Shown here: piece by piece, positions 4,321-30,663 of the stretch | Position numbering within the stretch: position 1 is the stretch's first letter | How the letters are laid out: the number at the start of each line of letters is the position of its first letter | NCBI GenBank assembly: GCA_025362495.1 | Contig: JANYGI010000188.1 | Coordinates: forward strand, 1 to 32,999 | DNA: 32,999 nt | Reading direction: 5' to 3' | DNA from: Byssovorax sp. | GTDB taxonomy: Bacteria > Myxococcota_A > Polyangia > Polyangiales > Polyangiaceae | Notes under the pieces: generated by a model | Database searches by the model: none | What the model saw: the letters and a program-made list of their open reading frames with translations, nothing else | Told to the model about the DNA's origin: nothing | Translations under genes and position numbers: made by a program

Positions 4321-5808
4321 CTACGCCGTCGCGAGGTCGTCGATGACGCGGAGGAACGTGAGGACGCCCTGCCCCGTGCCGCCCTTGGAATAGAGGCCGT
4401 ACGCCTTGTTGGCCATGGAAGGGCCGGCGATGTCGACGTGGATCCAGGCCGTGTCGCCGACGAACTCGCGGAGGAAAAGCGCCGCGCTGATCGCCCCGCC
4501 CCAGCGGTCGGCGACGTGCTTGATGTCGGCCCAGTCGCTCTTCAAGCCGTCGCGCAGATCTTCCACCATCGGGAGCTGCCACATCGCTTCGCCGGCCGTC
4601 TTCGCGGCCTTGCGGAAGCGCTCCGCGGCCTCGTCGCGGTTGGTGAAGTAGCCCGAGACCGTGGGGCCGAGGGCCACGACGCAGGCGCCCGTGAGCGTCG
4701 CGTTGTCGATCATCAGATCGGGCTTGAGCTCGCGGCCGTAGGCCAGCACGTCGGCGAGGACGAGGCGCCCCTCGGCGTCGGTGTTGATGATCTCCACCGT
4801 CTTGCCGTCGTAGGAGCCGAAGATGTCGCCGGGGCGATACGCGTCGCCGTCGGGCATGTTCTCGGCGCTGCCGATGATGCCGTGGACCTCGACGTCGGGC
4901 TTCACCGCGGCGACCGCGGCCATCAGCGCGACGACGTTGGCCGCGCCGCCCATGTCGCCCTTCATCTCTTCCATCCCCGGAGCGGGCTTGATGCAGATGC
5001 CGCCGGTGTCGAACGTGAGGCCCTTGCCGACGAAGACGATCTTCTTCGTCTTCGCGTTCGCGCCCTTGGGCTTGTAGATCATGTGGATCATCCGCGGGTC
5101 GCGGCGGCTGCCGCGGCCGACGGCGATGATCAGCTTCATGCCCTTCTTCTCGAGGGCGGGGCGATCGAGCACCGTGACCTGGAGGCCGCGCGATTTGCAC
5201 ATCGCGACCGCGGCGTCGGCGAGCTTCTCCGGGTAGAGCTCGTTGGGCGGCTCGTTGATCAGATCGCGCGCGATGCACACGGCCTCGCCGACCTGCTGGC
5301 CGAGCGCCGCCGCGTCCTTCGCGGCCTTCGTGAGCGCGCCCGCGACGAGGAGCGTGACCTTGTCGAGCTGCACCTTCGGGAGACGATCGCCCGTGAGGTA
5401 TTTCGTGAAGCGATACGATCCGAGGACGACGCCTTCGGCCGCGGCGCGCTCGCTCCCGACGACGTCCCCGGGGATCGCGACGCCGAGCGACGCGGCCTTC
5501 GCGCCGATCGCGAAGCGGCCCGCGCGGGCAGCGAAGAGGCGGACCTCGATCGCGCCGAGGGGCTCCTTGCCGAGGCCGAAGAGGATCAGCCGCGCCGGCT
5601 TCACGTCGTCGTTGCAGGGGATCTCGACCGACTGGTCCTTCTTGCCGGTGAAGTCTTCGCGCTTGAGGATCCGCGCCACCGCCGGGCCCAGCCGCGTCGT
5701 CAGCTCGCCGAGGATGCCATCTTTCGCGCTGGCACCTTCAGGGATGCCGAGGACGAGGACGTCGACAGCGACGCTGAGGGGCTCGGTGGACGAAAGGGAG
5801 AGCTTCAT
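4321..5808 (-). CDS. pepA: Leucyl aminopeptidase PepA (family M17)
   Basis: 495 residues. The C-terminal catalytic half has the metal-site stretches KGLTFDTGG and MKGDMGG and the family signature NTDAEGRL at 342-349; the N-terminal macro-like domain occupies about 1-160. Known: a two-metal, hexameric cytosolic aminopeptidase removing N-terminal residues; some homologues also bind DNA. The ATG at 5808 is preferred because homologues begin near the strand KLSLSS; an in-frame start at 5889 would add 27 residues without family features. A possible promoter lies at 5855-5885 (GTGACG, 17 bases, TTAGAT on the minus strand), which overlaps that longer form. First gene of the pepA-ttcA-membrane protein cluster. 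Confidence 0.92.
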   Translation of the reverse strand: MKLSLSSTEPLSVAVDVLVLGIPEGASAKDGILGELTTRLGPAVARILKREDFTGKKDQSVEIPCNDDVKPARLILFGLGKEPLGAIEVRLFAARAGRFAIGAKAASLGVAIPGDVVGSERAAAEGVVLGSYRFTKYLTGDRLPKVQLDKVTLLVAGALTKAAKDAAALGQQVGEAVCIARDLINEPPNELYPEKLADAAVAMCKSRGLQVTVLDRPALEKKGMKLIIAVGRGSRRDPRMIHMIYKPKGANAKTKKIVFVGKGLTFDTGGICIKPAPGMEEMKGDMGGAANVVALMAAVAAVKPDVEVHGIIGSAENMPDGDAYRPGDIFGSYDGKTVEIINTDAEGRLVLADVLAYGRELKPDLMIDNATLTGACVVALGPTVSGYFTNRDEAAERFRKAAKTAGEAMWQLPMVEDLRDGLKSDWADIKHVADRWGGAISAALFLREFVGDTAWIHVDIAGPSMANKAYGLYSKGGTGQGVLTFLRVIDDLATA

Positions 5809-5854
5809 CGGTATGCTGGGTTCCGGGGAGGTGGCGCGAGGCAGCGGGCGCGCA

Positions 5855-5883
5855 TCTAACCACGAAGTGACCACATCGTCACG
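5855..5883 (-). promoter_or_regulatory. Possible pepA promoter
   Basis: On the minus strand GTGACG is followed by 17 bases and TTAGAT, about 45 bases before the pepA start. The match to a vegetative consensus is partial. Its position inside a longer possible pepA ORF supports the shorter start. Confidence 0.3.
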
Positions 5884-5932
5884 CGCCAAGGGGTCGCGCG
5901 GGCGGCCCTCCGGAGCGTGACGACGAGGGGTG

Positions 5933-6859
5933 TCAAGAGGCCGACTTGTAAGCGTCCATCACGTCGGCGAGCAGCTTCAAGGCATCGGGCCGCGCGCGCT
6001 GGAACGCGTTGCGTCCCATGATCGCTCCGAACGATCCACCGGCCGCCATCTCCTTCACTTCTGCAAGGAGCTCCGGCGTCCCCTTCGCTTCACCGCCGGA
6101 GAAGATCACGACTCGCTTGCCGTTGAACGTCGCCTGGATGATGTGGCGGATCCGATCCGTCATGGTCGCGATCGGGATCTGGAACTTGTCGAAGACCTTC
6201 TTCGCTTCGTCCTGCTCCACGTGCGCCGTCGGCGGCTTGACCTTGATGATGTGCGCGCCGAGCTGCGCCGCGATCGTCGCGGCGTAGGTGCAGACGTCGA
6301 TCCCCGTCTCGCCCGCCTTGGAGAGGCCGGCGCCGCGCGGGTAGCTCCACACCACGGTGATCAGGCCCTTGCGCTTGGCCTCGATGATCAGGTCGCGGAG
6401 GTCCTGGTACATCTGGTTGCGCTGCCCGGAGCCCGGGTAGATCGTGTAGCCGATGCCGATGCAGCCGAGCCGGAGCGCGTCCTCGACCGACGAGGTCAGC
6501 GCGGAGCAGGGCTGATCGATCTTCGCGAGCGAGTCGCTGTTGTTGACCTTGAGGATCAGCGGCACCTGCCCCGCGAACTTCGCGGCGCCCATCTCGAGCG
6601 AGCCGAGCGGCGCGGCGTACGCGTTGCAGCCGGAGTCGATGGCGAGCTGGAAGTGGTAGTCGGGATCGTAGGCCGCCGGGTTCGAGGCGAACGATCGATC
6701 GGGCCCGTGCTCGAAGCCTTGATCGACCGGGAGAATGACGATCTTGCCGGTGCCCGCCAGCGTGCCGTGGTTGAGCAGCCGAGCGAGGTTCGTCAGCGTC
6801 CCCGGGTTATCGGAGGCGTACCAGGAGAGTATCTGCTTCACGCGATCGGTCACAGCCAT
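5933..6859 (-). CDS. Class I fructose-bisphosphate aldolase (DhnA/FbaB family)
   Basis: 308-residue cytosolic TIM-barrel enzyme. Family features include ILPVDQGFEHGP near residue 45, VVWSYPRG in the middle, and HIIKVKPP, whose lysines K206/K208 include the likely Schiff-base residue; the phosphate-binding end IFSGGEAKG and GRNAFQR are also present. Known reaction: reversible cleavage of fructose 1,6-bisphosphate to dihydroxyacetone phosphate and glyceraldehyde 3-phosphate without a metal. The ATG at 6859 is chosen because GGAG lies six bases upstream; a second ATG at 6871 overlaps that site. It is head to head with fructose-1,6-bisphosphatase, so the 186-base gap could coordinate opposing steps at the same metabolite. 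Confidence 0.9.
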   Translation of the reverse strand: MAVTDRVKQILSWYASDNPGTLTNLARLLNHGTLAGTGKIVILPVDQGFEHGPDRSFASNPAAYDPDYHFQLAIDSGCNAYAAPLGSLEMGAAKFAGQVPLILKVNNSDSLAKIDQPCSALTSSVEDALRLGCIGIGYTIYPGSGQRNQMYQDLRDLIIEAKRKGLITVVWSYPRGAGLSKAGETGIDVCTYAATIAAQLGAHIIKVKPPTAHVEQDEAKKVFDKFQIPIATMTDRIRHIIQATFNGKRVVIFSGGEAKGTPELLAEVKEMAAGGSFGAIMGRNAFQRARPDALKLLADVMDAYKSAS

Positions 6860-7045
6860 GGGTCGCTCCATCCAGTAAAGGGGCTCGAGGTTCGGCCACG
6901 CTGATAGCGCGGGTCGGCGCCGGACCCAAGCCCGGCATTTCCTGAACCGGCCAGCCGACCGCTCCGTCGCCGGAAGAGGCTGGGCTTGTGGCCGCGACGC
7001 GCCTCGGGCACACCGCCGGGACACGCCGACGAACCGAGGGAGATC

Positions 7046-8101
<1,056 letters not shown>

Positions 8102-23599: not shown

Positions 23600-24882
23600 G
23601 TGACCGCTCCTTCGTCATCGCTGACGGTGGGCAACGGCGTTGACGTCGAGGTCGTCGCGGGGACGATCGGAGACGCCGCGACCTCGGGCGGCGGATCGTC
23701 GCGGGTCTCGCCGGCGCGAGAGAGCGCGCTGCGGAGCGCCGCGGGGCCGACCAGCTCGCCGAAGAGGGTGATCGCCGCCGCGCACGCCAGGACGAGGCCG
23801 CCGACCGGCCCCGGGAAACGCAGCGCGAACGCCAGGCCGATGCTCATCGCCAGCGCGCCGGCCGACAGCAGGCCGAGGCCGAGGCGCGGGCCAGCGCGGC
23901 GCGCCGCCGGGGCCACGCCGAGGATGCCGAGGCCGATGACGCCCTTCGTCAGCGTGCGCGCGCCGATGGCGACGGCGACGAGGTACGGCAGGTACTTCGC
24001 GAGGCTGAAGTCGGTGAAGGCGCCCGCGAGGAGGAGCGCCGGCAGCATCACGGGGTGCTCGGTGGGCGAGAGGATCCGTCGCAGCTCGCGGCGGTGCGGC
24101 GAGAGCGCGGACAGCGTGACGCCCATGACGAAGAGCGCGCTGATCGACGAGAGGCCGAGGCGCTCGGTGGTGCCGACGGCGAGGAGCGACATGCCGAGGA
24201 GCACGCCCCACGTCTCGGCGAGGCGGAAGGTCTTGCCGAGCAGGAGCGCCGCCATCGCGCCGAGCAGCAGGCCGAGGCCGACGGTGATCCCGAGCCAGCC
24301 CAGCGTGTGGAGGTGAAACGCGACGGCCGGCGGTTGCAGCGCGAACAGCAGCGCGACCGCGAGGATCGGGATGAGATCGTCGCTCTCGGCGATCTCGTTC
24401 ACGAGGTCGGACACCGGGCCCTCGGCGTGGTGGCGTGAGGCCACCCAGCGCACCGCGTAGCGCGTCGTCTCGGCGCCGGCCGCGCCGATGCCGCCGGCCG
24501 CGAGGAGGCGATCCGTCGGCGCGAGCGGCGAGCGAAAGCGGAGGAAGAGCCACGCCGCCGCGAAGACGGCGGCGCCGCTCAGCAGCGAGACGAACAGGCC
24601 GCCGACGAGGCGCGTGGTCCGCACGCGGCGATCGCCCGTCATGCCGAACGTGACGCCGATGACGAACATCAACCAGCCGAGCGCGACGTGAGCGAAAGGC
24701 TCGAACGTGGTGAGCGTGGCGCGATCGAAGAGGCCGAGCAGGCTCGGCCCGAGGATGAAGCCGAGGACGACGTACTCGGCGCCGGACGGCAGGCCCATGC
24801 CGCGGATGGCGCGGCCGCCGACCAGCAAGCTCCCGATGTACGAGAGCAGCAAGAGCCCCATGAGCAGCCAGATGGCGTTCAA
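23596..24882 (-). CDS. Second CPA-type cation:proton antiporter
   Basis: 428 residues with about 12 hydrophobic segments. AEYVVLGFILGPSLLG (36-50) matches the first conserved CPA2 segment, and D168/D169 in AESDDLIPIL form the paired aspartates typical of electrogenic CPA2 exchangers. GAETTRYAVRW (137-146) precedes them. The C-terminus is a short acidic/Pro-Thr-rich tail. The TTG at 24882 is chosen because it overlaps the stop of the channel gene (TTGA) and has GGGAG eight bases upstream; an ATG at 24861 is the alternative. The protein differs clearly from the next antiporter, so the pair are paralogues at best, not a recent duplication. Confidence 0.78.
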   Translation of the reverse strand: MNAIWLLMGLLLLSYIGSLLVGGRAIRGMGLPSGAEYVVLGFILGPSLLGLFDRATLTTFEPFAHVALGWLMFVIGVTFGMTGDRRVRTTRLVGGLFVSLLSGAAVFAAAWLFLRFRSPLAPTDRLLAAGGIGAAGAETTRYAVRWVASRHHAEGPVSDLVNEIAESDDLIPILAVALLFALQPPAVAFHLHTLGWLGITVGLGLLLGAMAALLLGKTFRLAETWGVLLGMSLLAVGTTERLGLSSISALFVMGVTLSALSPHRRELRRILSPTEHPVMLPALLLAGAFTDFSLAKYLPYLVAVAIGARTLTKGVIGLGILGVAPAARRAGPRLGLGLLSAGALAMSIGLAFALRFPGPVGGLVLACAAAITLFGELVGPAALRSALSRAGETRDDPPPEVAASPIVPATTSTSTPLPTVSDDEGAVT

Positions 24883-26525
24883 CGCGAGGCTCCCGACGCG
24901 GCGCTGCCGCGACGTCCGAGGGCGATGCTCTTCTCGCGCAGCGCCGAGGAGATCGCCAGCCAGAGGCGGCTCTCGGCGCCGACGACCGAGGCGTGAATGA
25001 GCACGCGGAAGCGCGCCGCGTCGGCGTCGATCCCCGCGAGATCGACGCGGTTGCGCGTGCCCACCATCTTCGCGGCACGCTCGAGCGCCTCGGCGGCGAC
25101 GGCGAGATCGGCGTCGGGGGCGACGAGGACCTCGACCACGATCGGCGGCGACGCGCCGAGCGAGCTCGTCGGGTACCAGAGCCCGTGGAGGTGCGGCACG
25201 TAGACCGCCGAGCCGTTCTCGTCTTCGAGCACGACCTCGAGCAGCGTGATCGCCCGGACGCGGCCGTGGCGCCCGCCGATCGCCGTGTGCTCGTTCACGC
25301 GTAGCCGGCGCCCGTACATCACGGTGATCCCCACGGCGGCGTTGCAGAGGAGCGGCGTGCTCGCGAGGGCGAGCGCCACGAGGGCGATGACGCCCGCGCG
25401 CGAGATGGCGCCGTCGTCGGTGCCGGTGATCAGCGGGGCGGCGACCACGAGCGTGACGACGACCATGCCGAAGCGGACGAGGAGCCCCGTGGCCACCGCG
25501 AGGTCGCGCGGGAGCAACCCGAGCGTGGTCTCGCCGCGGGCGACGCTGCCGAAGAAAAGGCGAACGAAGCGCAGCGCGACGCCGACGATCATCGCGGTGA
25601 TCACCGCGATCACCACCAGCGGGAGCGCGACGGCGACGCGGCCCATCAGCGCCGAGAGCGGCGTGAGGACGAAGCCGGTGAGGCGCTCGGTGTAGCTGTG
25701 CGTCGCTTCGAAGAGCGAGAGCGTGATGATGATCCACGCGTAGATCACGCCGATCTGCGTGATGATCCGCGCCGCGCTCAGCGCGACGGAGGCGCTGCCC
25801 CGGACCGCGGCCGGCTGCACGACCTCGATCGCGCGGACGCGCAGCGCCGGGAAGCGCTCGGGGTGCTCCGTCATCCAGACGCGGGCCTTCTCGGCGAGCT
25901 CCCCGACCTTGCGGAGCAGGAGGAACGCGACGAGCCCGGCGAACACCACCAGCGAGAACGAGAACACCGTGCGCGCCACGGCGCTGCGCTGGCGCTCGGC
26001 GCGGAGGGCCTCGCGCGTCTTCGCGGCGACGGCGGCGGCGTGCACGGCGAGCGACGCGTCGCCGGCCGCGGCGACGTCCTCGGCGCCGAGCTGGATCACC
26101 GGCGTCGTGCCGACGTAGACCACGGCGATGTCGCCCTCTTCGGCGACGCGGACCTCGAGATCTTCGGCGTCGTCGAGGACATGTTCGAGGACCTGGCTCG
26201 CGGCCGAGGCGCGCTGCTCGGCGGTGCGCCCCGCGCGCGGCGCCAGCACCACGAAGGCGCGCCGATCGTGGATGCGCACGGCGGCGCCCGCCGCGTCGGC
26301 CTTCGCCGCGCCGTCGGCGGCGGCCGGGCTCGCGTGACCGGCCGGAGCGCCGCTCATCGCAGGCGCCGCGCTCAGCACCGGCGCCGCGCTCATCGCGGGC
26401 GCCACGCTCACCGCGGGCGCCGCGCTCGCGGACGGCGCCGGTTGAGCCCACAGCAACGACGGCGCCAGCACGAGCGACATCGTCGCGATCGCAAGCGCCA
26501 CAACGACCCTGATCCGCGCCTGCAT
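24879..26525 (-). CDS. MscS-like mechanosensitive ion channel with long periplasmic N-terminus
   Basis: 548 residues. A signal peptide (1-27) is followed by a low-complexity segment of about four six-residue repeats of the type APAMSA (36-59) and a soluble region (about 85-150). Hydrophobic segments near 183-200, 245-265, 285-310 and 338-400 lead into the MscS core: pore helix around 385-400 and the beta domain with YGRRLRVNEHTAIGGRHGRVRAI, then a C-terminal alpha/beta domain. Known: MscS channels release solutes on osmotic downshock. Inferred: the extended periplasmic part senses or gates. First gene of an overlapping operon with two antiporters. Confidence 0.78.
   Translation of the reverse strand: MQARIRVVVALAIATMSLVLAPSLLWAQPAPSASAAPAVSVAPAMSAAPVLSAAPAMSGAPAGHASPAAADGAAKADAAGAAVRIHDRRAFVVLAPRAGRTAEQRASAASQVLEHVLDDAEDLEVRVAEEGDIAVVYVGTTPVIQLGAEDVAAAGDASLAVHAAAVAAKTREALRAERQRSAVARTVFSFSLVVFAGLVAFLLLRKVGELAEKARVWMTEHPERFPALRVRAIEVVQPAAVRGSASVALSAARIITQIGVIYAWIIITLSLFEATHSYTERLTGFVLTPLSALMGRVAVALPLVVIAVITAMIVGVALRFVRLFFGSVARGETTLGLLPRDLAVATGLLVRFGMVVVTLVVAAPLITGTDDGAISRAGVIALVALALASTPLLCNAAVGITVMYGRRLRVNEHTAIGGRHGRVRAITLLEVVLEDENGSAVYVPHLHGLWYPTSSLGASPPIVVEVLVAPDADLAVAAEALERAAKMVGTRNRVDLAGIDADAARFRVLIHASVVGAESRLWLAISSALREKSIALGRRGSAASGASR
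26349..26420 (-). repeat. 18-bp tandem repeat inside the channel gene
   Basis: Four in-frame copies of an 18-base unit encode APAVSV, APAMSA, APVLSA and APAMSG (residues 36-59) just after the signal peptide. Such repeats can change copy number and vary the length of the exported linker. Confidence 0.6.
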
Positions 26526-28210: not shown

Positions 28211-28315
28211 TCGAATCAGTCCTCCCTCACCCATTCAGCTCGAAGTTATTCCGCGTCGGACGCTGCGCCGATGCGCCCGACCCTTCGCGCGAATCGCGGT
28301 GATCGCGGCGCCCCG

Positions 28316-28324
28316 TGATATCCT
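28316..28324 (+). promoter_or_regulatory. Extended -10 element of the sigma-factor cluster
   Basis: TGATATCCT (TG-N-TATCCT) lies ten bases before the ATG at 28335. The -35 region is poor. A start at the usual distance would leave a leader of only three or four bases. Confidence 0.4.
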
Positions 28325-28334
28325 CGATCGCGTC

Positions 28335-28381
28335 ATGCACTCCGCGCGATTCCTGCCTTTGGCGCTGGTGCTCTCCTTTTC
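28335..28381 (+). other. Frame-shifted signal-peptide start of the downstream gene
   Basis: ATG at 28335 opens a frame encoding MHSARFLPLALVLSF, the first two-thirds of a signal peptide. The remainder, FLPSLAQAAG with an AQA cleavage site, is read in the frame of the downstream ORF, which has no ATG or GTG of its own. The switch falls at TTTT (28377-28380): a single extra base there, or a -1 slip, joins the two into one perfect signal peptide. Confidence 0.6.
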
Positions 28382-29296
28382 TTGCCGAGCCTCGCCCAGG
28401 CGGCAGGCAACCGGGACGACGAAGCCCGCCTGGAGTACCTGCGCGGGCCCGGCGCGGAGAGCTGCCCCGGTGACGAAGCGCTCCGCGATGGAGTCGCGGC
28501 GCAGATGGGTGGCGCCGATCCCTTCACGGCTCACGGCTGCTCGAAGCGCGTCGTCGTCACGATCAGCCGCTCTCCGCGCAGCTTTGAAGGGGAGTTCGCC
28601 CTCTACGACGCCGACGGCGCGCTCGTGGGTCGCCGTCCGATGGGTGCCTCGACGTGCGCCGGCCTCGTGCAAGACCTGGCGACCTCATTGAGCCTCGCGC
28701 TCCGTCCTTTTTTGCTCCCCACCGCGCCGGCGGCGCCGCCGCGTTCACCACCGTTTGCGCTGGATCGGCCACCGCCGGTCCCGCCCACCGCGCCGCCTTC
28801 CTCGACGCGGCCCGATATTCGGATTGGCCTTGGCGCGTCAATGGGCTTCGGGCTGTCGCCCGCGATCGTCAGCCCCGGATTCGGTGGCTTCGTCGGCGTG
28901 CGCTGGGCGTGGTTCTTCCTGTCGCTCGAAGGACGCGGCGATCTCCCCGCCTCTACCAACGGGCCGAGCGGTGCCCACCTTCGAACGTCGCTCGCCGTGG
29001 GCACGTTCGCGCCGTGCCTCCACCGGCGATGGCTCCTCGGCTGCGGTTTGCTCACCGTTGGAGCGCTCCACGGCGCGGGCGTCAACGTGCATCCCGACGG
29101 GCAGACGGGGCCTTACCTGGCGGCCGGGCTCCGCGCCGGTGTCGAGGCGCCGTTCTCCGATCACTTCTCTGGCCAGATCACCGCGGACGGCTTGATCACC
29201 GCGCTTCGCCCACGAATGCTCGTCGGAGCAACCGAGGAATGGGTCGCCCCGGTTGCGTCGGGGTCGATCGGTATCCGGCTCGTCGCATCTTCCTGA
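28382..29296 (+). CDS. Secreted, beta-barrel-like protein of a myxobacterial family
   Basis: 304 residues as read from a TTG. The first residues complete a signal peptide that begins at 28335 in another frame. Residues about 15-105 (GAESCPGDEALRDGVAAQMGGADPF, then CSKRVVV and a Gly-rich turn, ending CAGLVQDLATSLSLAL) match an N-terminal pattern that I recall as common in myxobacterial envelope proteins: CP-D-x-LR-x-V, a DPF step, a conserved second Cys. A Pro-rich linker (108-140) leads to about 160 residues of alternating polar and hydrophobic strands (IRIGLGASMGFGLSP; FFLSLEGRGDLPAS), consistent with an outer-membrane barrel. It lies 53 bases upstream of the sigma-factor gene, so the two are probably co-transcribed. 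Confidence 0.6.
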   Translation: MPSLAQAAGNRDDEARLEYLRGPGAESCPGDEALRDGVAAQMGGADPFTAHGCSKRVVVTISRSPRSFEGEFALYDADGALVGRRPMGASTCAGLVQDLATSLSLALRPFLLPTAPAAPPRSPPFALDRPPPVPPTAPPSSTRPDIRIGLGASMGFGLSPAIVSPGFGGFVGVRWAWFFLSLEGRGDLPASTNGPSGAHLRTSLAVGTFAPCLHRRWLLGCGLLTVGALHGAGVNVHPDGQTGPYLAAGLRAGVEAPFSDHFSGQITADGLITALRPRMLVGATEEWVAPVASGSIGIRLVASS

Positions 29297-29349
29297 TCCC
29301 GGGGGACGATTTCCAGATGATGCAGCCGGGCTCGCGGGAAGTACGGCGC

Positions 29350-30663
29350 ATGAGCTCTCCTGATCCGCCGGCTCCCGCGAGCGTGCGGCCCGCGCCGCCG
29401 TCGATGGAGATGGTTTACCGCGAGACCTTCAAACCGACGTGGAGCCTGCTCGGCCACCTCGGGATCCGCAGGCGCGAGGACCGCGAAGACGTCGCCCAGA
29501 ACATCTACCTGGTCATCGCCGGCAAGCTCGACACCTACGATCCCACCCTGCGGCTGCAAGCCTGGGTGAACGGGTACGCGGTGAACATCGCCCGTCGGTA
29601 CCAGCAGCTCGCGCGCAATCACCGGGAGCAGCTCCTCGGCGACGAGGCAGGAGAGCTCATGGATGTCGACGGCTCGAACCCGGAGCAGCACGCGATTGAC
29701 GAGGATCGCCGCACGATCCTCGACCGCTTGATCGACGCGCTCGAAGAAGACCGCCGCCTCGTGCTGGTGATGAAGGAGCTTCAGCACCTCGACATGCTCG
29801 ACATCGCGCGCGCGCTGAACATCCCGCTCGCGACCGGGTGGACGCGGCTCCGCCTGGCCCGCGCGGATCTCGAGGCTGCGATCAAGCGCCTCGGCGCTCG
29901 CGAGCGCGACGCGCTGGGCTTCGCGGGGATGGCCATCGTCCCCGTGACGGCGAGCGATCTCGATCGACTGTTTGGTGACGCGCGCCAGGCACCGATCCCC
30001 ATCGCGTCGGACGGCGGGACCGCGGCGCGGATCTGGGGCCGACTTCAAGAGCAGCGCCCCAGCGTGACGATGCGCGGCTCGCTCCCGCTGGTGCCGCCGC
30101 TCGCGGCTTCCGCGACCCATGGCGCGCGCACGCTGGCGATCGTCTTCGCGACCGGCGCGGGTCTCGGCGCGGCGGCTCTCTTCGCGCTACTTCCACTCCC
30201 AGGACCCGCGCCGGTCACGCCTGCGCCGAGCGCTCGCGCCGAGGTTGCGATGGTCACGCCCTCGACGACGGCGAGCGCCGCGAGCAGCGACGACGCGCGG
30301 GCCGTGGGCAGCGCGGCGATGCCTCCGTCGATGGCCGCCGCACCCGTGCCCTCTAGCGCGCGGACCGATGCCGACGACGGTGAAGGCCGAGGCGCGACCG
30401 AGGGCGCGCTCATCCAGCGCGCGAGCGCAGCGCTCGCCGCGGGTAGGGCCAGCGAGGCGATCAAGCTCGCGCAGAGCCACGCGAAGAAGTACCCGCGCGG
30501 CGGGATGGGACAGGAGCGCGACGTCGTCTTGATTCAAGCGTTCGTGCTCGCCGGGCAACGGGCGAGAGCGATCGATCTCGCCGACCACTTCCGGCGCGCG
30601 TCGCCCACGAGCCCACTTCTTCCCACCATCGACGCGGCGCTCGGCGCGAAGCCGAGCCCCTGA
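29350..30663 (+). CDS. ECF-type sigma factor fused to a membrane anchor and TPR-like tail
   Basis: 437 residues. Sigma region 2 lies about 22-97 (EDREDVAQNIYLVIAGKL; WVNGYAVNIARRYQQLARNHR) and region 4 about 122-182 (LDRLIDALEEDRRLVLVMKE, then DIARALNIPLATGWTRLRLARADLEAAI, a helix-turn-helix). A linker follows to a single transmembrane helix at about 259-283, a Pro/Ser/Ala-rich stretch to 355, and two or more TPR-like helical pairs at 360-437 (ALIQRASAALAAGRASEAIKLAQ; VLIQAFVLAGQRARAIDLADHF). If the helix spans the membrane with the sigma part inside, the TPR-like tail is outside. GGGAAG lies eight bases before the ATG at 29350; an ATG at 29317 is an alternative. Confidence 0.8.
   Translation: MSSPDPPAPASVRPAPPSMEMVYRETFKPTWSLLGHLGIRRREDREDVAQNIYLVIAGKLDTYDPTLRLQAWVNGYAVNIARRYQQLARNHREQLLGDEAGELMDVDGSNPEQHAIDEDRRTILDRLIDALEEDRRLVLVMKELQHLDMLDIARALNIPLATGWTRLRLARADLEAAIKRLGARERDALGFAGMAIVPVTASDLDRLFGDARQAPIPIASDGGTAARIWGRLQEQRPSVTMRGSLPLVPPLAASATHGARTLAIVFATGAGLGAAALFALLPLPGPAPVTPAPSARAEVAMVTPSTTASAASSDDARAVGSAAMPPSMAAAPVPSSARTDADDGEGRGATEGALIQRASAALAAGRASEAIKLAQSHAKKYPRGGMGQERDVVLIQAFVLAGQRARAIDLADHFRRASPTSPLLPTIDAALGAKPSP

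Follow-up and report, generated by a model that had tools for sequence, protein, structure and literature searches.

The window analysed here, a 32,999-nucleotide stretch of Byssovorax sp. (assembly GCA_025362495.1, contig JANYGI010000188.1), carries two neighbouring genes on its forward strand, namely a gene for a predicted outer-membrane beta-barrel protein and, downstream of it, a gene in which a sigma factor is joined to a putative membrane-spanning segment and a tetratricopeptide repeat (TPR) domain. The latter gene, P0001 (29317–30663, stop codon at 30661–30663), encodes 448 residues if translation begins at ATG 29317 and 437 residues from ATG 29350. In P0001 numbering, the chain comprises sigma region 2 (residues 30–105; 29404–29631), delimited by TIGR02937, AlphaFold and structure comparison; sigma region 4 with its helix-turn-helix (122–195; 29680–29901), delimited by Pfam and AlphaFold; a hydrophobic stretch with a proline directly after region 4 (29929–29949); an AlphaFold-predicted pre-membrane helix (30022–30051); a hydrophobic segment as putative single transmembrane helix (273–294; 30133–30198); an Ala/Pro-rich disordered linker (30199–30378), for which the predicted local distance difference test (pLDDT) is about 40–45 over most of its length; and a BamD-like, presumably periplasmic TPR domain (355–443; 30379–30645). 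The first-pass annotation had set the gene 53 bases behind the barrel gene and the hydrophobic segment at residues 259–283. Both values count from ATG 29350; the in-frame ATG 29317 would leave only 20 bases, and the segment corresponds to residues 273–294 of P0001.

Sigma regions 2 and 4 and the TPR-like tail lie in a single open reading frame, as had been recognised from the start, and sensor-type and sigma parts are indeed combined in one chain. Region 4 is matched by Pfam Sigma70_r4_2 (residues 134–185, E 9.6e-9), and TIGR02937, which covers regions 2–4, matches residues 51–185 with 42.4 bits, just below its cut-off of 42.9. Pfam listed no sigma region 2 in the window protein. In the AlphaFold model, predicted from alignment A6, residues 26–105 superpose on region 2 of E. 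coli sigmaE (4lup) with Z 11.5, and sigmaE is also the closest sequence relative of solved structure (6e-8). Region 2 (by model and TIGR02937) and region 4 (by Pfam), with little between them, make this an extracytoplasmic function (ECF) sigma factor, and a stretch of about 75 residues separates the sigma part from the hydrophobic segment. The tail was modelled as helices over residues 355–443 (pLDDT 96–98 over 361–440), and its best solved match is BamD (Z 12.8, 1.7 Å over 81 residues), a score to be read against the approximately Z 13 that helical repeats alone can reach.

The upstream frame (28319–29296, forward strand, TGA at 29294–29296) matches the barrel-family profile at 4e-100. A secreted, beta-barrel-like protein had been proposed from 28335; a signal-peptide-like start and a barrel body are both present, but not in a single open reading frame. 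The frame of ATG 28335, whose codons up to 28381 read as a signal-peptide-like N-terminus, differs from that of the barrel body and terminates after 118 codons. The latter runs without a stop between 28319 and 29293, and the earliest usual start codon in it, TTG 28382, already lies beyond the signal peptide. An apparent one-base frameshift near 28377–28381, either an assembly error or a real mutation, separates the two. The AlphaFold model of the barrel protein (mean pLDDT 91.3, 53 alignment rows) consists of a separate, presumably periplasmic N-terminal domain of beta-alpha-beta-beta-beta-alpha order (28424–28714), also delimited by alignment and structure comparison, a proline-rich linker (28715–28813; pLDDT 52–76 over most of it) and an 8-strand OmpA-type barrel (28814–29293). 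The predicted barrel resembles OmpA, NspA, OprF and OmpW (Z 16–18), with residues 137–304 superposing best on OmpA (Z 18.0, 3.1 Å over 158 residues). The N-terminal domain matches the N-terminal domain of TolB (TolB-N; Z 8.8–8.9, 2.5–2.6 Å over 95 residues), PqiC (Z 9.2) and a ribosome hibernation factor (Z 8.9) about equally well, which in a predicted model would point to a common fold and to no particular function. Cysteines C28 and C92 of the N-terminal domain are invariant across the 53 rows, and the C212/C221 pair of the barrel is nearly so. Pfam and NCBIfam returned no entry for the window barrel protein, and the Pfam barrel model OMP_b-brl was matched by one of 53 family members. Among 282 genomes drawn across the phylum, 52 carry the family (E 1e-10, with scoring limited to 8 candidates in each genome).

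To place the two genes in their wider context, we made use of 60 regions of the window's own genome and of related ones, together with 80 named loci, which were the best 80 of 121 relatives found by a sigma-alignment scan. Profiles of the sigma domain, the TPR tail and the barrel protein, derived from the window proteins together with those first 60 regions, served to score all open frames of at least 60 codons; start codons of the cassette genes were inferred from sequence. Since the sigma loci were mostly chosen by likeness to the window sigma factor, the resulting counts describe that family only. In the regions examined, the commonest layout consists of three genes on one strand, in the order barrel, sigma factor, and transmembrane-plus-TPR protein. 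Counting each distinct sigma domain once, we obtained 90 such split pairs of sigma and tail genes, and in 76 of them the start of the tail gene overlaps the sigma stop by exactly four bases (64 ATGA, 12 GTGA). A further 13 pairs overlap or abut within 30–40 bases. The single pair that does neither, L149, was falsely labelled as split and is an apparent fused gene with an in-frame stop; this gene (5374–7311) belongs to Sorangium cellulosum So0008-312, and its sister L126 is open. A barrel gene lies directly upstream in 78 of the 90 split pairs; two pairs stand at contig ends, and ten have no barrel gene within 1 kb. Seen from the barrel side, 40 regions with better, though not all, barrel-protein matches (L072–L111, some of which, e.g. 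L074, L080, L083, L109 and L111, were widened to include a known sigma match) contain 41 barrel genes, with a sigma gene directly downstream of 27, directly upstream of four and within 1–4 kb of five, one barrel gene at a contig end and four without a sigma gene. The ancestral set is best explained as three genes, one for the barrel protein, one for the sigma factor and one for an inner-membrane protein that crosses the membrane once and carries its TPR domain in the periplasm. A plasmid collection yielded no match at 1e-10. The sigma domains of two of the loci, L187 and L188, are identical; the binned genomes that contain them, both named Chersky, are labelled Proteobacteria in one case and Thermoleophilia in the other, and these labels look unsafe.

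Judged from these sequence comparisons, the window protein is a fusion of the second and third cassette genes, which most of the relatives examined keep apart as adjacent and usually overlapping genes; the first-pass annotation, which took the chain as a unit, had missed this. For assigning the tail to the sigma factor, this neighbourhood of separate genes elsewhere is stronger evidence than the topology. As the two genes mostly overlap by four bases in different frames, a single-base insertion or deletion could have fused them.

The fused set comprises 25 proteins, of which 16 lie outside the named loci (nine in the window's genome, including the window protein) and nine within them, namely seven from Sorangium cellulosum and two from elsewhere (L174 and L190). 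Two members, L054 and L061 (5050–5946), were added by hand on the strength of a transmembrane-like stretch with no TPR match; L061 runs off its contig, and the start of L056 is cut away by the end of its contig. The closest relatives of the window sigma factor are fused Sorangium proteins (43% identity). An order-wide search of 183 genomes, with at most 9 candidates scored per genome and a fused match defined as starting no later than model position 10 and reaching position 400 or beyond of 444 without internal stop, gave at least 23 fused matches in at least nine genomes, namely that of the window, each of the six with genus code g19, G061 and G144. In the g19 genome G169, a match coincides in its coordinates with locus L112 of S. 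cellulosum So0157-2. Eight more matches across most of the query contain a stop and were left out; in four of them, which come from the window's genome, the gene itself ends at that stop. Fused copies are present on the complete chromosomes of S. cellulosum So0157-2, So ce26 and So ceGT47, and a chance or artefactual fusion was rejected for the main group on this ground. L174, whose near relative L158 is split, may be a frameshift artefact.

The number of fusion events was addressed by constrained trees. These were built after removal of L170_11308, both L149 rows, L069, L071, L061_426 and identical copies, with split rows thinned to every second one plus L158, leaving 88 rows. A single origin of all fusions (25 fused rows together versus 63 others) was rejected by the approximately unbiased (AU) test (p-AU 3.6e-5), a result weakened by long branches and by the shortfall of the free tree search in the following test. 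Without L174 and L190, a single origin is compatible with the data (23 fused versus 46 split rows, p-AU 0.73); here, the constrained tree surpassed the free one by 13.9 log units, a sign that the unconstrained search had not reached the optimum. The fusions in L174 and L190 look separate in origin on these alignments.

The junction of the two parts retains some traces of the split arrangement. With a profile of the N-terminal segment of split tails, 12 of 25 fused pre-membrane regions reached 5 bits or more, compared with 12 of 1250 shuffles, and the other 13 stayed below. Directly after region 4, a hydrophobic stretch with a proline occurs in 20 of 25 fused proteins and in none of 123 other sigma frames, and the proline is nearly invariant in the 16 rows of alignment A7. 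This pattern was defined after inspecting the sequences, and the 123 frames are hardly a control, as they end a median of 8 residues past region 4 and only five have 25 residues there.

As to the hydrophobic segment, a chance origin was rejected: its maximum on the Kyte-Doolittle scale, 2.12, was reached in 38 of 2000 shuffles of the segment. A stretch of at least 1.3 on this scale stands at the corresponding place in 21 of 22 fused proteins and in 99 of 101 split tails, and its distance to the TPR domain is nearly constant (median 96 residues in the 22 fused and 97 in the 101 split proteins, some of them duplicates). On an insertion scale applied without position weights, the window segment scores a favourable -0.24 as the only fused case at or under 0. 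Such scores are found in one of 23 fused and 10 of 92 split segments, versus one of 460 and 7 of 1840 shuffles, respectively.

Taken together, these results are probably best accounted for by a sigma factor that has been joined to an anti-sigma-like membrane regulator of its own, that is worked by a partner in the outer membrane and that is probably released by proteolysis, in the manner of the sigma/anti-sigma fusion IutY of Pseudomonas putida. The order of sigma domain, single transmembrane-like stretch and C-terminal domain in one chain is that of IutY-type proteins, with AlphaFold giving no transmembrane helix for the window protein. The four-base gene overlap, the fusion and the hydrophobic segment suggest that the tail may bind and inhibit the sigma domains. 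The domain order, the fusion of parts encoded separately elsewhere, the linkage of the genes and the predicted barrel fold are computed results; we infer the topology, the masking, the contact between TPR domain and barrel protein, the proteolytic release and the target genes along the following lines, proposed by analogy with IutY. The sigma domains would reside in the cytoplasm, tethered and masked at the inner membrane, while the TPR domain, on its long disordered linker, would touch the barrel protein at its N-terminal domain in the periplasm. Changes at the outer membrane would then expose the periplasmic part to trimming and, subsequently, to an RseP-type protease, whose cut would free the sigma domains for transcription. 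Genes of the RseP and Prc families are present in the window's genome above curated cut-offs.

Several observations weigh against this interpretation. AlphaFold gave the hydrophobic segment a pLDDT of about 38–47 and no helix, with 9 of 74 alignment rows covering the region, and insertion scores were above 0 in 22 of 23 fused and 82 of 92 split segments. The match of the window's pre-membrane region, which includes the predicted helix, to the split-tail segment is weak (7.1 bits, exceeded by 4 of 1250 shuffles). No known anti-sigma domain (zinc finger, FecR, RskA/RseA type) appeared in the Pfam results for the window protein, five split tails and two fused relatives, and FecR gave no Pfam match to the window protein at E up to 1. 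As the RseP family occurs in 14 of 14 and the Prc family in 11 of 14 control genomes, their presence says little. In addition, the barrel gene of the window carries the apparent frameshift described above. The pairing of barrel and sigma genes, supported by the split cassettes, is less so by the fused genes, of which 8 of 25 have the barrel gene directly upstream, 15 have none within 1 kb and two stand at contig ends. In seven fused loci from the window's branch (L080, L083, L112–L115 and L126), it lies on the same strand 1.9–4.3 kb upstream, measured from barrel end to sigma domain.

Finally, a search for a shared promoter motif upstream of 108 barrel genes found none; neither ECF-type pairs nor any of the 4-mer dyads occurred there more often than in shuffled sequence. 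Gene starts for this set were mostly taken as the first ATG near the domain start, otherwise GTG, otherwise TTG, the window being set by hand to ATG 28335. Single 6-mers in excess (CACCAC, 16 versus 3.7 expected; GATAGC, 12 versus 2.4) are the best of thousands, uncorrected, and they pair at promoter spacing in one sequence only. A GTGATA-like box stands shortly before some barrel-gene starts, including that of the window (28315–28320), and may be an ordinary -10 element.

Among the alternatives, the one that fares best takes the barrel protein not as sensor but as regulated product, a surface protein that heads the operon and is produced once the sigma factor has become active. ECF systems usually have autoregulated operons, and the position of the barrel gene directly upstream in most split cassettes fits this view; a separate N-terminal domain with an invariant cysteine pair, on the other hand, exceeds the needs of a plain product, and we regard this alternative as unlikely, albeit deserving of some weight. 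The sensor and product roles are not exclusive of each other. Quite unlikely is a tethered sigma factor acting without proteolysis, in which the TPR or pre-membrane part would switch the sigma regions by conformation, or the sigma factor would act only near the membrane. The hydrophobic stretch after region 4 could serve as a built-in latch for such a switch, but IutY, the studied fusion of the same design, is reported to be freed by Prc and RseP (PMC9249621, PMC5411451).

Very unlikely, in our view, is a reading in which the TPR tail stays soluble in the cytoplasm, like the extension of ECF42, and the hydrophobic stretch does not cross the membrane. The absence of a transmembrane helix from the AlphaFold model would agree with it, as would the Gly/Ala-rich composition of the stretch and its marginal character in most relatives; nevertheless, the stretch recurs at the same place in nearly all fused and split tails, and the long Pro/Ala linker and the BamD-like TPR domain suit the periplasm. 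Least probable is a decaying locus, in which the frameshifted barrel gene no longer signals together with its neighbour, since the barrel frame past the frameshift is open and matches its family over its length, the sigma-tail frame is open throughout, and the frameshift between the signal-peptide-like start and the mature barrel may be an assembly error.

Returning to the fused, membrane-tethered sigma factor with its outer-membrane partner, a broader and more tentative model, to which we give somewhat less than even weight, would be a TonB-independent surface signalling system of Myxococcota with several paralogues per genome, in which the periplasmic domain of a small barrel reports to the TPR domain of a single-pass ECF regulator and in which the sigma factors of the window and of Sorangium would themselves have taken on the role of transmembrane receptor and gained a hydrophobic latch behind region 4. 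Myxobacteria possess many ECF sigma factors, most without known signal or regulator, and if this holds, the three-gene cassette, with its uncharacterised first and third genes, would offer a candidate sensor and regulator for many of them; likewise, barrel-based surface signalling would need to involve neither a TonB receptor nor a FecR domain. The natural fusions provide a simple handle, as cleavage of one chain can be traced by blot.

Some additional features were observed around the fused genes. In Sorangium and in genome G018, a diverged second sigma gene, forming one shared branch, adjoins the fused gene (L112, 4875–5639; L114, 3372–5732; L115, 4801–5622; L083, 7975–8670), and in L113 and L080 it lies downstream instead. 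Pfam found nothing beyond one sigma region 2 among the neighbours in the Sorangium locus L112. The fused genes L086, L090 and L108 of G018 have the barrel gene downstream rather than upstream and a long insert within sigma region 2, and L060 and L062 are closely similar fused paralogues on different contigs of the window's genome. Elsewhere in the window, the protein of the reverse-strand frame 24879–26525 weakly resembles the beta-domain of mechanosensitive channels (E 0.0014, below the cut-off).

No description of a cassette of OmpA-type barrel, sigma factor and transmembrane-plus-TPR protein, or of its fusion, was found in the literature searched, which did not include the main ECF classification paper, and a numbered ECF group for the window sigma factor may exist. 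Sigma factors with a membrane extension are already known, in IutY and in ECF48, ECF52 and ECF53. In ECF48/ECF52/ECF53 of Actinobacteria (e.g. SCO4117), the C-terminal transmembrane extension is expected to act as anti-sigma factor, according to passages of PMC8999054 that mention no outer-membrane partner; these proteins contain a zinc-finger domain, whereas Pfam detects none in the window protein. ECF42 shares the TPR domain after region 4, yet its extension, as given in passages of that source, consists of about 200 TPR-rich residues with no transmembrane segment named, whereas the window protein has a transmembrane-like segment and a 60-residue linker in between (PMC8999054). The FecI-FecR-FecA system, as outlined in PMC9249621, similarly combines a barrel with an N-terminal periplasmic domain, a sigma factor and a single-pass inner-membrane regulator; with no Pfam match to FecR or a TonB receptor in the window and family proteins tested, the comparison extends to the way of working only. 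The barrel itself has the 8-strand fold of OmpA, OprF and OmpW, judged from the predicted model, to which the window family adds the TolB-N-like domain and four conserved cysteines.

Overall, the idea of sensing within one chain has its precedent in IutY (ECF243), a sigma/anti-sigma fusion working with the outer-membrane receptor IutA, which is reported to be trimmed by Prc and cut by RseP once the receptor has bound its ligand (PMC8999054, PMC9249621, PMC5411451). The window system shares with IutY an N-terminal ECF sigma factor, one transmembrane segment, putative in our case, and a C-terminal periplasmic domain in one chain, as well as an outer-membrane barrel partner (PMC9249621, PMC5411451). 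It differs by a TPR tail in place of a FecR-like one, by a neighbouring 8-strand barrel, about 160 residues long and matched by no Pfam family, instead of a TonB-dependent receptor, and by its occurrence in Myxococcota with several paralogues per genome.

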